Assembly (NCBI GenBank): GCA_028291345.1
Contig: JAQGIF010000124.1
Coordinates: 1 to 39,647, forward strand
Source of the DNA: Rhodospirillales bacterium
Lineage (GTDB): Bacteria; Pseudomonadota; Alphaproteobacteria; BOG-932; Roseiterribacteraceae
Direction of reading: 5' to 3'
Length of the DNA stretch: 39,647 bases
Both the position numbers and the translations under genes were made by a program. The notes below the pieces were generated by a model, which saw only the letters and a program-made list of their open reading frames with translations, had not been told where the DNA came from and did not search any database. Positions within the stretch are counted from its first letter, which is position 1. Each line of letters begins with the position of its first letter. Positions 8,352-15,373 of the stretch are shown piece by piece.

Positions 8352-8474
8352 CGTCCATCAGCTGCTTCACACCTTTCATGCGGGACTTTATAGCGGCTGA
8401 AGCAGATCAGCGTTAGGTTGCCGGTATAACATCATTTGGCCGCAGGATCGCGCCCGCGGCGGAGTTCATTGCGT

Positions 8475-9140
8475 ATGCTCACCACCCGTCTTTTCGCCCT
8501 TACGCTCGGGATCACAGTATTGGCCGGCTGCTCGGGGCAGAAAGCCCCGGCGCCGCCGACTTTCAGTCCGAACGGCGAGCCGCTGTTGCCGCCGCGCTGG
8601 CCGGAAAAATGCGAGGACGCGCTGGATGCCTGGTTCGACGGGCTGGATACCGGCCATACCGATGGCCTGACTCATGCGCAGCTGCTGGCAGATGCCGAGA
8701 AGCAATATAAGCTGATGGATCTGCGCCATGACGGCAAGGTGACGGCTGAGGAGCTGTCGAAGTACCGCCTGTCGATCATGGGCGGCCATTATCTCAGCGT
8801 CAGCACGCCGGGCGAACGCTCGTTCTTCGGCCTTGGCGGCGACGATGACCGGCCGGGCTCCAGGCTCGGCGGCGTCTTCGGCAATGGTTCGCCCGACGAC
8901 GACAATCCACGTCACAAGCGCGGCGAGAACAACCGGCCGGTCGATGCCTATGCCGCAATGGTCACAGATCAGCCCGACCCGGTGATGACCGCCGATACCG
9001 ACCTGGACGGCTCGGTGACCTGGGACGAATTCCGTGGCCTGGTCGCCCAGAACTTCGCCGAATTCGACAAGGAGCACAAAGGCGTGGTCACCAAGTCGGA
9101 GGTCGAAAAGATGTGCGGCGGCCATAAGGGGTGGTTCTGA
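8475..9140 (+). CDS. EF-hand domain lipoprotein
   Basis: The 221-residue protein starts with a lipoprotein signal (MLTTRLFALTLGITVLAGCS, lipobox LAGC), so it should be anchored in the inner or outer membrane facing the periplasm. Two good EF-hand calcium loops are visible, DLRHDGKVTAEE and DTDLDGSVTWDE, plus a degenerate third (DKEHKGVVTKSE). A poorly conserved Gly/Asp-rich linker (GLGGDDDRPGSRLG onward) separates them. The ATG at 8475 was preferred over a TTG at 8436 because it places the signal peptide at the start; GGAG lies 11 bases before it. Its role is not known; calcium sensing or structural binding is the family-level guess. Divergent from the glycosylase gene. Confidence 0.8.
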   Translation: MLTTRLFALTLGITVLAGCSGQKAPAPPTFSPNGEPLLPPRWPEKCEDALDAWFDGLDTGHTDGLTHAQLLADAEKQYKLMDLRHDGKVTAEELSKYRLSIMGGHYLSVSTPGERSFFGLGGDDDRPGSRLGGVFGNGSPDDDNPRHKRGENNRPVDAYAAMVTDQPDPVMTADTDLDGSVTWDEFRGLVAQNFAEFDKEHKGVVTKSEVEKMCGGHKGWF

Positions 9141-10610: not shown

Positions 10611-11357
10611 TCAGAACGGGATTTCATATTCTAACTCCCACTTCGCCTCGCCCGCCGGGCTGCCCTGCGTCATGCCGAACAGGTATCCGACATTGTAGAC
10701 AAAGTTGCCGGGAAGGATCGGGAGGTTGAACTTGCCCGATATAACAGGGCCGATGAGGTGATGCTGTTCGTTCACGGGGTCCAATCCGGTTAACCGCCCC
10801 GGTTCTCCGAAGGCTTCCACGCCAAATTGGACCGCCCGTTTCCACGGGTAATTCGCCCGCAACGCATATTCGAATCCTGCGCCCTTGCCGGCATTCGGGC
10901 CGATATCCCGGTTGAAAATGAGATTGGCGGTAACCACGAACGGCGCGATTTGCTTTTCGAGAAGCAGCTTGAACTCCAGCTCATCGGGATCGTTACGTGC
11001 CGATGCTTTGGCGTATTCCAGGTAAAGACCAACATCCATCCAATATTCGCCTTGTGGCGTTAATTGAAAGATATTCTCCAGAGCCGTCGCATTATATTGA
11101 AGACCACCTTGTGGGTCCTTGGTCAAGTTGCCGAAGACAGCAGTATACCACCATGAGTTTACCCCGTACGAGATTTCGTAGACTTGGTTTTGTTGATCAT
11201 TCTTGTCCGCTGCGGAATCGACTGTCCTTTGGCCACGCGCCTCCAGTTCCAGAACACCTTCCTCGACGACCGGGGAGTAGACTTTATGATCGGCCGATGC
11301 GGGGCTGATGGCGATCAGTGCGGCGCCACAGACGATCGTCGATTGTATGAATTTCAT
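10611..11357 (-). CDS. exported outer-membrane-like protein of unknown function
   Basis: The 248-residue protein has a signal peptide (MKFIQSTIVCGAALIAISPA, cleavage probably after ASA) and then alternating polar/hydrophobic strands ending in aromatic ELEYEIPF, as is common for outer-membrane beta-barrels. AGAGGACC precedes the ATG. It follows the cupredoxin gene on the same strand after 87 bases and is probably in the same iron-controlled transcript. I do not recognise the family beyond a general resemblance to proteins found near cupredoxin and FTR1-type iron uptake genes; no FTR1 permease is in the window. Confidence 0.65.
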   Translation of the reverse strand: MKFIQSTIVCGAALIAISPASADHKVYSPVVEEGVLELEARGQRTVDSAADKNDQQNQVYEISYGVNSWWYTAVFGNLTKDPQGGLQYNATALENIFQLTPQGEYWMDVGLYLEYAKASARNDPDELEFKLLLEKQIAPFVVTANLIFNRDIGPNAGKGAGFEYALRANYPWKRAVQFGVEAFGEPGRLTGLDPVNEQHHLIGPVISGKFNLPILPGNFVYNVGYLFGMTQGSPAGEAKWELEYEIPF

Positions 11358-11444
11358 TAAATTTGGTCCTCTGAAAATTTTGCGTTAGCGTCGAGGGGGC
11401 GCAGGAATACTTGCCTGCTTATCGTGACGAGCGCCGAAGCTCCC

Positions 11445-11780
11445 TTAGGGGACGACGACGAAGCCACGCGCGGTGTCGGAATGAAAATCCCCGAAAAATT
11501 CATATCGGCCGACGGGTAGCGGGCCGATGAAAAGGACGATCCGGCCGCCGCCGGCGACCACTTTTTCCCGATTGAGAGCAGGGCTTTCGAATTCCTCGGC
11601 GGTCTCATCGTCGTTCTTGACGATCACCCTGATTTTGGTATCGGCCGGAATGGTGATGCTGGTCGGATCGAAGCGATGGTCACGGATCGTCAACGTAAAA
11701 TCGTCCGCATGGGCCGTGACCGGGACGTTCCATAAGGAGGCGATGCCCAGCCCGAGAACAACAAACCGTGGGAAATTCAT
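11445..11780 (-). CDS. periplasmic cupredoxin-domain protein, EfeO-type
   Basis: The 111-residue protein starts with a signal peptide (MNFPRFVVLGLGIASLWNVP, cleavage near AHA-DD), then a single cupredoxin-like fold: FTLTIRDHRFDPTSITIPAD, EEFESPALNREKVVAGGG and RYEFFGDFHSDTARGFVVV. The classic blue-copper cysteine is absent, as usual in this subfamily, which accompanies ferrous-iron/FTR1-type uptake systems. The ATG at 11778-11780 with AGGTGATTTG before it is preferred over the TTG one codon upstream. A Fur-type box begins 16 bases upstream, supporting a role in iron handling. Which metal it binds is not shown by the sequence. Confidence 0.75.
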   Translation of the reverse strand: MNFPRFVVLGLGIASLWNVPVTAHADDFTLTIRDHRFDPTSITIPADTKIRVIVKNDDETAEEFESPALNREKVVAGGGRIVLFIGPLPVGRYEFFGDFHSDTARGFVVVP

Positions 11781-11795
11781 CAAATCACCTGCAAC

Positions 11796-11810
11796 TGAGA
11801 ATTATTATCA
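11796..11810. promoter_or_regulatory. Fur-type iron box before the cupredoxin gene
   Basis: TGAGAATTATTATCA is a 7-1-7 inverted repeat with one mismatch to the Fur motif TGATAAT-N-ATTATCA. It sits 16 bases upstream of the cupredoxin ATG, where repressor binding would block transcription or the promoter. It predicts induction of the cupredoxin and outer-membrane-like genes under iron limitation. Confidence 0.6.
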
Positions 11811-12365: not shown

Positions 12366-12440
12366 CGTAGGATGGCCTCGAACGCAGCGAAACCCATCAA
12401 TACGGACCGAGAGTTTCGCTGCGTTCTACGTCATCCTACG
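12366..12440. repeat. 75-base palindromic repeat (MITE/REP-like hairpin)
   Basis: The arms CGTAGGATG-N5-AACGCAGCGAAAC (left) and its inverted copy pair over about 30 bases with 4 mismatches (26 of 30), with a loop of roughly 15 bases. Related CGTAGGATGGGT...AGCGAAACCC hairpins are common dispersed repeats in proteobacteria. It lies in the gene-poor stretch before the secreted protein gene. Confidence 0.6.
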
Positions 12441-13679: not shown

Positions 13680-14216
13680 CTACGGCAGCATCCGGCGCAA
13701 AATGTCGTCTTTTAGAACATAGTGATGCTGTAGGGCCGCGGCAGCATGGAGGAATAGCAGCGCGTAGAGCGCGACGGCGGCGGCCTTATGCACGGCGAAG
13801 GCGGCATGGCCCAAGGGTTCATTATGACCGGTCAGCGTCGGCAGATCGAACAGGAAGAAATAATGAACCGGCTGTGAGAACGCCCCCGCATCGAGCAGGC
13901 CGCTGAGCGGCAGGATGACTAACAGGGCATAAAGCAACCCCTGATCAAGCCGCGCCGCAACGCGCCGCCAGGGTGCGATCGTCTCGGGCAAAGGCGGGCC
14001 AGGGTGCTTCCAGCGCCAGGCCAGCCTGAGCACCGCAAGTACCAGGAGTGTCGTGCCGATCGATTTGTGAACGGTCAATATCCGGTCGTGGGCGGGGCTA
14101 TGTTCGTCGAAGCTATCGAGCGACCAGGCGAGGCCCACATTGGCGACGATCAGGATGGCGATGAGCCAGTGGAACAGGATCGCGACCGTGTCGTAACGTT
14201 CCGTCCGCCCTGTCAT
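13680..14216 (-). CDS. cytochrome b561-type diheme membrane protein
   Basis: The 178-residue integral membrane protein has four hydrophobic helices and the paired histidines of the prokaryotic cytochrome b561 (CybB) family: ILFHWLIAIL, HKSIGTTLLVLAVLRL, GHAAFAVHKAAAVALYALLF and LHAAAALQHH. It probably moves electrons from quinol or superoxide in the inner membrane. ATG 14214-14216 with GGAGACGGCGCGA before it was chosen; in-frame ATGs at 14237 and 14240 overlap the end of the mnmA gene region and are also possible. It lies directly downstream of mnmA. Confidence 0.85.
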   Translation of the reverse strand: MTGRTERYDTVAILFHWLIAILIVANVGLAWSLDSFDEHSPAHDRILTVHKSIGTTLLVLAVLRLAWRWKHPGPPLPETIAPWRRVAARLDQGLLYALLVILPLSGLLDAGAFSQPVHYFFLFDLPTLTGHNEPLGHAAFAVHKAAAVALYALLFLHAAAALQHHYVLKDDILRRMLP

Positions 14217-14242
14217 TCGCGCCGTCTCCAAACGCATCATCC

Positions 14243-15373
14243 TCAAGCCGCGGCCAGGCTGCGCCGTTCCGCGCTCTGGATCCAGCCGCCGCCGATGACG
14301 CGGTCGCCCTGATAGATCACGCAGGCCTGGCCGGGGGCGACGCCGAACTGGGCGCCGTCGAGATCGACGGTCGCGAGGCCGCCAGCCAAGGCGGTGAGGG
14401 TGGCTGCCGCGAGCGGCTGGGCCGAGCGCAACTTGACCTCGGCGGTCAGCGTCTCGCCGAATGTAACCGGGATCAGCCAGTTCATCTCGGTCAGATTGAC
14501 GCGATCGCGCGCCAAAGCTGCCTTCGGGCCAATGATGACGCGGTCCTGGTCGGGGTCAAGGGCGACGACATAAAGCGGTTCGCCGCCGGCGACACCCAGG
14601 CCGCGGCGCTGGCCGATGGTGAAATTGATGATGCCCTGATGGTCGCCGACGGCACGGCCTTCCAGATCGACGATCTTGCCGGGGCGCACCGAGTTCGGGC
14701 GCAGCTTCTGCACCACGGCGGCATAGCCGCCGTTGGGGACGAAGCAGATATCCTGGCTGTCGGGCTTGTCAGCCACCTGAAGCTCATACTGCTTGGCCAG
14801 ACGACGGACCTCGCTCTTGGGCAGGCCGCCCAACGGAAAGCGCAGGAAGGATAGCTGGTCGTCGGTAGTGGCGAACAGGAAATAGCTCTGGTCGCGCGAC
14901 TGGTCGGTGCCGCGATGCAGTTCGGGACCGTTAGGCCCGGCGATGCGCTTGGCGTAATGGCCGGTCGCCAGAGCATCGGCGCCCAAGGTGCGGGCCATCT
15001 CCAGCAGATCGCCGAACTTGACTTTCTGGTTGCAGCGGATGCAGGGGATCGGGGTTTCGCCACGGATATAGCTGTCGGCGAAATCGTCGATCACGCCGGC
15101 CCGGAAGCGGGATTCGTAGTCCAGAACATAATGCGCGATGCCGAGCTTACCGGCCACCGCGCGGGCATCGGCGATATCCGCTCCGGCGCAGCAGCTTCCG
15201 GCCTTGCCCTTCAGGGCGCCGTCGTCATAGAGGCGGAGGGTCGCACCGATCACCTCATAGCCCTGGTTCGCCAATAGGGCGGCCACCACCGAGGAATCGA
15301 CGCCGCCGGACATGGCGACGACGATGCGCGCACCCGGCGGCAGATCGTTCCCCGTAGTGTCGGCGAGGGTCAC
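14243..15373 (-). CDS. mnmA: tRNA-specific 2-thiouridylase MnmA
   Basis: The 376-residue enzyme inserts sulfur into wobble uridine 34 of Lys, Glu and Gln tRNAs. The PP-loop SGGVDSS lies near residue 22. The first catalytic cysteine is in CIRCNQKVKF, the second in SQDICFVPNGGY; TGHYAKR, FTIGQRRGLG and the closing beta domain are present. Start is GTG at 15371-15373, behind GAGGATAATC, because the open frame further upstream overlaps the ferredoxin gene and is not protein-like. Eight bases separate it from the ferredoxin stop. The gene ends a sulfur-handling row with a cysteine desulfurase and ferredoxin, which could supply persulfide and electrons directly; this is inferred from order. Confidence 0.93.
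   Translation of the reverse strand: MTLADTTGNDLPPGARIVVAMSGGVDSSVVAALLANQGYEVIGATLRLYDDGALKGKAGSCCAGADIADARAVAGKLGIAHYVLDYESRFRAGVIDDFADSYIRGETPIPCIRCNQKVKFGDLLEMARTLGADALATGHYAKRIAGPNGPELHRGTDQSRDQSYFLFATTDDQLSFLRFPLGGLPKSEVRRLAKQYELQVADKPDSQDICFVPNGGYAAVVQKLRPNSVRPGKIVDLEGRAVGDHQGIINFTIGQRRGLGVAGGEPLYVVALDPDQDRVIIGPKAALARDRVNLTEMNWLIPVTFGETLTAEVKLRSAQPLAAATLTALAGGLATVDLDGAQFGVAPGQACVIYQGDRVIGGGWIQSAERRSLAAA

Follow-up and report, generated by a model that had tools for sequence, protein, structure and literature searches.

The locus

The window—the whole 39,647-nucleotide stretch of Rhodospirillales DNA analysed here—carries on its minus strand a short cupredoxin gene followed by a gene for a predicted outer-membrane protein, with a Fur-type box ahead of both:

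11796..11810, minus strand: Fur-type box, a 7-1-7 inverted repeat that agrees with the palindrome at 13 of 14 positions (window and whole-assembly scans)
11445..11783, minus strand: FtrB-like cupredoxin gene (PF13473); 112 aa, signal-peptide-like start
11358..11444, minus strand: intergenic gap of 87 nt between the cupredoxin and barrel genes; FTR1 occupies this place in the arrangement most common among related modules
10611..11357, minus strand: gene for an outer-membrane-type beta-barrel of 12 predicted strands; 248 aa, no Pfam or NCBIfam match

Counted from a TTG codon, the cupredoxin gene encodes 112 aa; an alternative ATG lies at 11780, and the distance from the end of the box to the start of the gene is 12 nt (TTG) or 15 nt (ATG). 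The box itself, TGATAATAATTCTCA, deviates from the 7-1-7 Fur palindrome TGATAATNATTATCA at one position. Within the window, nothing else matches with up to three mismatches (100 shuffles gave an expectation of 0.28), and it is the sole site with zero or one mismatch in the 5.63-Mb assembly; an earlier note on this DNA had placed a Fur-type box just before the cupredoxin gene. When up to two mismatches were allowed, the whole assembly contained ten distinct Fur-type sites, as compared to three for a reversed-pattern control, and among the ORFs alongside the nine other sites, each with two mismatches, inspection by eye of the N-terminal 110 residues recognised no iron-uptake gene. The assembly further contains four FUR-family matches. 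With a box in its promoter region and Fur proteins encoded in the genome, the pair is a predicted member of a Fur regulon.

The cupredoxin resembles FtrB

Searched against Pfam, the window cupredoxin matched PF13473 (Cupredoxin_1) at 1.4e-26 and no second domain. It had previously been described as ‘EfeO-type’, which is apt for the domain, since EfeO holds a related cupredoxin domain, and not for a full EfeO. The latter is defined by its M75 (imelysin) part, whereas the window protein is a lone cupredoxin domain of 112 aa lacking this C-terminal part. Its length and the lack of a further Pfam match argue against a full EfeO, and its sequence identifies it as FtrB-like: the nearest solved structure is that of FtrB (8VUK, 3.7e-11), with the next best at 3.6e-4.

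The available text of PMC11966278 proposes E84, E86 and E93 as iron ligands of FtrB, and D118 together with H121 as copper ligands. All three iron-ligand positions are Glu in the window cupredoxin, whose residues at positions 118, 119 and 121 are G, D and H (FtrB numbering), so that only H121 is kept of the proposed copper-ligand pair. According to the same portion of that source, Gly is frequent at position 118 in FtrB cluster III, and Gly118 is hence compatible with FtrB kinship (PMC11966278). A paralogue of the window protein, encoded on another contig of the assembly (C220, see below), carries Asp118 and His121, the same as 8VUK. Of the 40 cupredoxins whose loci contain a barrel gene or a remnant of one, E84, E86 and E93 were kept in 40, 38 and 40, respectively, and 37 had Gly at 118. 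Loss of the copper site was considered as a mark of barrel-linked cupredoxins, yet this idea was weakened by the presence of G118 also in five of eight cupredoxins from loci without a barrel, a group that includes the solved FtrB.

A tree of 48 cupredoxins paired the window protein with the cupredoxin of a second genome of the same genus, G001 (support 100/98). Both fell inside a starred clade of 42 rows (96/86), with the C220-type pair outside it, in a tree that has many inner forks open and in which 8VUK and the cupredoxin of locus L076 form long branches.

The 248-residue protein is predicted to form an acidic barrel

The second gene of the pair had been put down in the earlier note as encoding an outer-membrane-like protein of unnamed family, with a failed barrel prediction set beforehand as a possible refutation. 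On both counts the description stands. The protein matched none of the Pfam or NCBIfam models, and an AlphaFold2 model based on 35 alignment rows has 12 strands, at a mean pLDDT of 90.8 and a pTM of 0.84. Low confidence was confined to residues 1–20, as a signal peptide would give; this peptide ends in ASA before residue 23, and the C-terminal residue is Phe. Combining a signal peptide, a closed barrel of even strand number and a C-terminal aromatic residue, the product is, by its model, a predicted outer-membrane beta-barrel protein. Searching Pfam with its 35 relatives returned a single match in one protein (PorP_SprF at 1.5e-4), and the barrel profile A3 returned no match among PDB sequences up to an E of 1.

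The best structural matches of the model were outer-membrane channels and transporters, headed by FapF and the COG4313 channel at a Z of 21.1; the 12-strand barrel PcoB was a further match (Z 12.2). We rejected an assignment of function from the top matches (FapF, the COG4313 channel, NalP), as they reflect a general likeness between barrels at 6–11% identity. By strand parity, computed on the alignment rather than from coordinates, the lumen side of the window barrel comprises 17 acidic and six basic residues. Over the 35 rows, lumen-side counts range from 15 to 25 acidic versus six to 13 basic residues, with E39, E94, D108, E243 and E245 as near-invariant acidic positions.

Barrel relatives keep company with FTR1 permeases

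To map the genomic company of the barrel family, genome contigs were scanned with the barrel alignment A2 alone, and neighbouring genes were identified by local profiles made from sequences of this analysis. This yielded 37 loci, one of which is a seed: L061 and seed L036, with 5571 bases and the same genes in each, are one contig. In 33 of the 37 loci, the barrel had FTR1 no more than 0.5 kb away, a cupredoxin was present in 32, and FTR1 and barrel shared a single open frame in 13. One fused protein and three divergent permeases were tested against Pfam, which confirmed FTR1 in all four. Two loci hold a cupredoxin and a barrel without FTR1 (L076, and L083, which stops at a contig edge) and two a barrel alone (L065, L079); the genomes of all four hold FTR1 elsewhere, with a match in 6/6 genomes queried.

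Broader samples, composed like most of our comparisons largely of draft assemblies, placed these loci in context. In an even sample of the phylum, 57 of 398 genomes had the barrel. A same-strand FTR1 adjoined it in 26 of the 57, 17 from the PF03239 search and nine from a divergent-permease search—coordinates being compared for PF03239 on all 57 genomes and for the divergent permease on 26 of them—and half of these adjacent pairs (13 of 26) formed one open frame. In a further 17, including the genome of the window, FTR1 was present at a non-adjacent position, and in 14 neither search found FTR1. A class sample gave a barrel match in 18 of 289 genomes; of 17 tested, nine had FTR1 and eight lacked it. 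Given the barrel genomes in which FTR1 was not found or lies apart from the barrel, the barrel family is wider than the FTR1 module.

This width bears on the question of whether the barrel is a general porin, or one of different specificity, that is merely co-regulated with iron genes, leaving the pair unlinked to FTR1. Relatives in genomes with no FTR1 found are what such a porin would predict, and the structural matches include porins as well as secretion barrels of varied function. However, FTR1 lies within 0.5 kb in 33/37 loci and in one frame with the barrel in 13/37, and the acidic lumen is conserved. We regard a porin without a link to FTR1 as improbable.

The earlier note had also entertained a separate metal route, an option that fares less well in view of the 33 of 37 loci in which barrel relatives adjoin FTR1 or share a frame with it. 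Put concretely, the pair would form a route for copper, manganese or zinc and work with an unknown permease. The window lacks FTR1, proteins of the cupredoxin fold can bind copper, and PcoB, a 12-strand barrel, is among the structural matches at Z 12.2. Against this, the box is Fur-type, the proposed copper ligand 118 of FtrB is Gly in the window cupredoxin, and the permease that relatives of the module carry is an iron permease; the chance of a route for another metal thus appears very slight.

Fur-type boxes recur before related modules

We extended the box scan to 40 modules, covering ~300 bases ahead of the first gene of each and a downstream stretch as control. Sites with at least 11 of 14 matching positions preceded 14 of the 40 modules (1.1 expected), those with at least 12 preceded nine (0.09 expected from shuffles), and those with at least 13 preceded three, namely L059, L064 and the window (0.00 expected). 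The downstream control gave 0/38 at each match level. The box is not universal, as 31 of the 40 modules are without an upstream site of at least 12/14.

Several gammaproteobacterial modules (L086–L094) are preceded by a membrane sensor-kinase-like gene, located upstream of the cupredoxin; in L094, the only one tested, its product matched 2CSK_N, HisKA and HATPase_c. These modules may be under different control.

Permease and barrel are repeatedly encoded in one frame

With no stop codon between the FTR1 and barrel parts, the fused frames must specify one continuous chain unless translation slips. In all 13, a hydrophobic segment separates permease and barrel, and right before the barrel this segment ends in AxA in 12 and in VxA in L077. 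One of the two scan patterns of A2 contains A[SH]A beside the barrel start and could favour loci with such a site; on reading the segments, L061 was the only one of the 13 fused frames to fit this pattern in full. The class sample added two single-frame FTR1–barrel cases (L038, L041). All 11 fused proteins of set A4 matched NCBIfam EfeU and TIGR00145; in the first of them, the scores stayed under the curated cut-offs.

Most simply, the segment can be read as a signal peptide within the chain, at which signal peptidase I would cut to yield one inner- and one outer-membrane protein. A model of the L059 fusion, weak (mean pLDDT 66.0, pTM 0.41) and serving only for the order of parts, places helices first, then a low-confidence linker at 269–301 and then 12 strands. 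A known case of such processing is Bradyrhizobium FbcH, in which cytochromes b and c1 are made as one precursor that is cut at an internal signal sequence. There, too, an inner-membrane and an exported protein come from one gene via an internal signal-peptidase site; the second part of FbcH, however, stays at the inner membrane, while the fusions described here would yield an outer-membrane barrel.

These frames lead us to a tentative proposal, for which we see not quite an even chance. FTR1 may belong to a dedicated trans-envelope importer with a built-in acidic barrel, made in many species as one polypeptide from which signal peptidase would free the two pores in equal number—or, more boldly, kept as an uncut tether—and the window would hold its split form. 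A literature search, with most subscription journals outside its scope, returned no description of an FTR1–barrel fusion or of an outer-membrane partner of FTR1.

Two further arrangements were observed. In genome G621 (contig C4:179462-180928), FTR1 lies in a 940-codon open frame and has a barrel gene next to it, the order of the two being reversed, possibly another fusion, and the genome contains a second barrel copy. On the Hydrogenophaga plasmid NZ_CP044976.1 (150424-152103; L007, L110), FTR1 precedes a barrel relative that the annotation divides into two hypothetical proteins; the plasmid is typed as conjugative, placing an iron module with a broken barrel gene on a mobile element.

The only FTR1 gene of the assembly lies on another contig

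As previously noted, the window has no FTR1 permease. Searching the whole assembly, as the earlier note had suggested, returned one FTR1, located on contig C220, and this single distant gene fits the proposal that the pair feeds a permease encoded elsewhere. On C220, FTR1 is preceded by the second PF13473 cupredoxin gene and followed by a PF10634 (P19-like) gene, ~150 bases past which the contig ends. No Fur-type box with up to three mismatches was found before this cluster. Upstream of its cupredoxin gene, at 5207-5235 of L058 (C220), we observed a perfect 9-11-9 inverted repeat, TTGATAATG...CATTATCAA, which resembles two spaced Fur-type half sites and may be an operator.

In G001, the gene order of cytochrome b561, cupredoxin and amidohydrolase equals that of the window. 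Its cupredoxin gene is intact, and of the barrel gene N-terminal and C-terminal pieces remain, in different frames. The single FTR1 of this genome lies on another contig, and its surroundings (8 kb) contained no cupredoxin match. These observations fit a module that was split when an ancestor shared by both genomes lost its FTR1, and whose barrel gene is decaying in one branch; alternatively, each genome may have lost FTR1 late and on its own.

Such decay might have overtaken the window pair as well. The chief rival to the importer reading developed below holds that the two genes are a leftover in decay, FTR1 having been lost from the cluster, the genome relying on the C220 set and the pair no longer being needed. 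The reduction of the G001 barrel gene to terminal pieces in different frames speaks for it, as does a C220 cluster equipped with its own cupredoxin, FTR1 and PF10634 genes. Yet both window genes are intact, with the barrel predicted to fold at a pLDDT of 90.8; no other box in the assembly is as good as the one before them; the cupredoxin retains its three iron-ligand glutamates; and in G001 the cupredoxin has stayed intact though the FTR1 of that genome sits on another contig without a cupredoxin match in 8 kb. On balance, we consider a mere leftover unlikely.

A probable split FTR1-type iron importer

The explanation that we favour as probable, judging from sequence comparisons and structure prediction, is an FTR1-type iron importer to which the window pair contributes the outer-membrane and periplasmic components, with the permease encoded elsewhere in the genome. 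Sequence establishes the parts, their linkage and the box, and from these the following steps are inferred. Low iron would relieve repression by Fur and switch the pair on. Fe2+ could then pass the outer membrane via the acidic barrel and be bound by the glutamate cluster of the cupredoxin, which may pass it to FTR1 or help to oxidise it for FTR1. The permease made from C220 would import the iron, in a presumed cooperation across contigs. FTR1 was probably once part of this cluster and was then lost, and the window pair may be eroding, as in G001. Counting against the importer reading, a paralogue of the window cupredoxin is encoded next to FTR1 on C220, which gives the permease a closer partner, and the broken barrel gene of G001 implies that the pair may be dispensable. 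The lack of a box before the C220 cluster and the barrel genomes with FTR1 not found or not adjacent count against it too. Most likely, the pair represents a split, perhaps eroding, form of the cupredoxin–FTR1–barrel module, with a putative role in iron uptake: FTR1, which belongs to the cluster in this module, is absent from the window locus and found on C220.

Among known systems, FtrABCD/FtrABC is a ferrous-iron importer of Bordetella, Brucella and Burkholderia with the cupredoxin FtrB, and the cupredoxin, FTR1 and P19-like protein of C220 correspond to FtrB, FtrC and FtrA as described in the available text of PMC11966278. The likeness lies in an FtrB-like cupredoxin with three iron-ligand glutamates and an FTR1-type permease; FtrA (P19-like) and FtrC (FTR1), which mark an FtrABCD cluster, are both missing from the window locus and both present on C220. 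Unlike FtrABCD, for which that portion of PMC11966278 names no outer-membrane component, the linked set here includes an outer-membrane barrel. In addition, none of the 37 barrel-driven loci gave a match to a local P19 profile, which was derived from a single sequence, and most barrel-linked cupredoxins are without the proposed copper ligands. With EfeUOB/EfeU, the module shares the permease family, as seen in the EfeU and TIGR00145 matches of the fused proteins.

The crossing of the outer membrane by Fe2+ is usually ascribed to general porins, although FupA forms an exception. In Francisella, this outer-membrane ferrous-iron protein acts with FeoB, according to the available parts of PMC7432831 and PMC4905997, and it provides a precedent for a dedicated outer-membrane Fe2+ route. 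FupA partners FeoB rather than FTR1, though, and its comparison with the window barrel concerns the proposed role.

The window pair can be classed as a variant of FTR1-type uptake that includes an outer-membrane member. An FTR1-linked, repeatedly fused barrel constitutes a concrete candidate for the outer-membrane component of FTR1-type systems, and the in-frame genes bear on whether one chain supplies both an inner- and an outer-membrane protein. Taken alone, the window pair is modest; the recurrent permease–barrel fusions are the surprising part. In the genome of the window, the same parts are spread out, which cautions against calling a permease missing from local context.

Neighbouring genes in the window

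At 8436-9140, the window encodes a lipoprotein-like EF-hand protein with three EF-hand stretches. It matches the lanmodulin model weakly (1.1e-5, well short of the cut-off), probably through nothing more than these EF-hands. A cytochrome b561-type gene (PF01292) lies at 13680-14246; its G001 counterpart ends 68 bases before the cupredoxin gene, and the encoded protein could serve as an electron source for iron reduction. Between the cytochrome b561 and cupredoxin genes of the window, at 12366-12440, we observed an inverted repeat with 28-nt arms, 89% complementary and 19 nt apart, in a stretch that is much shorter in G001.
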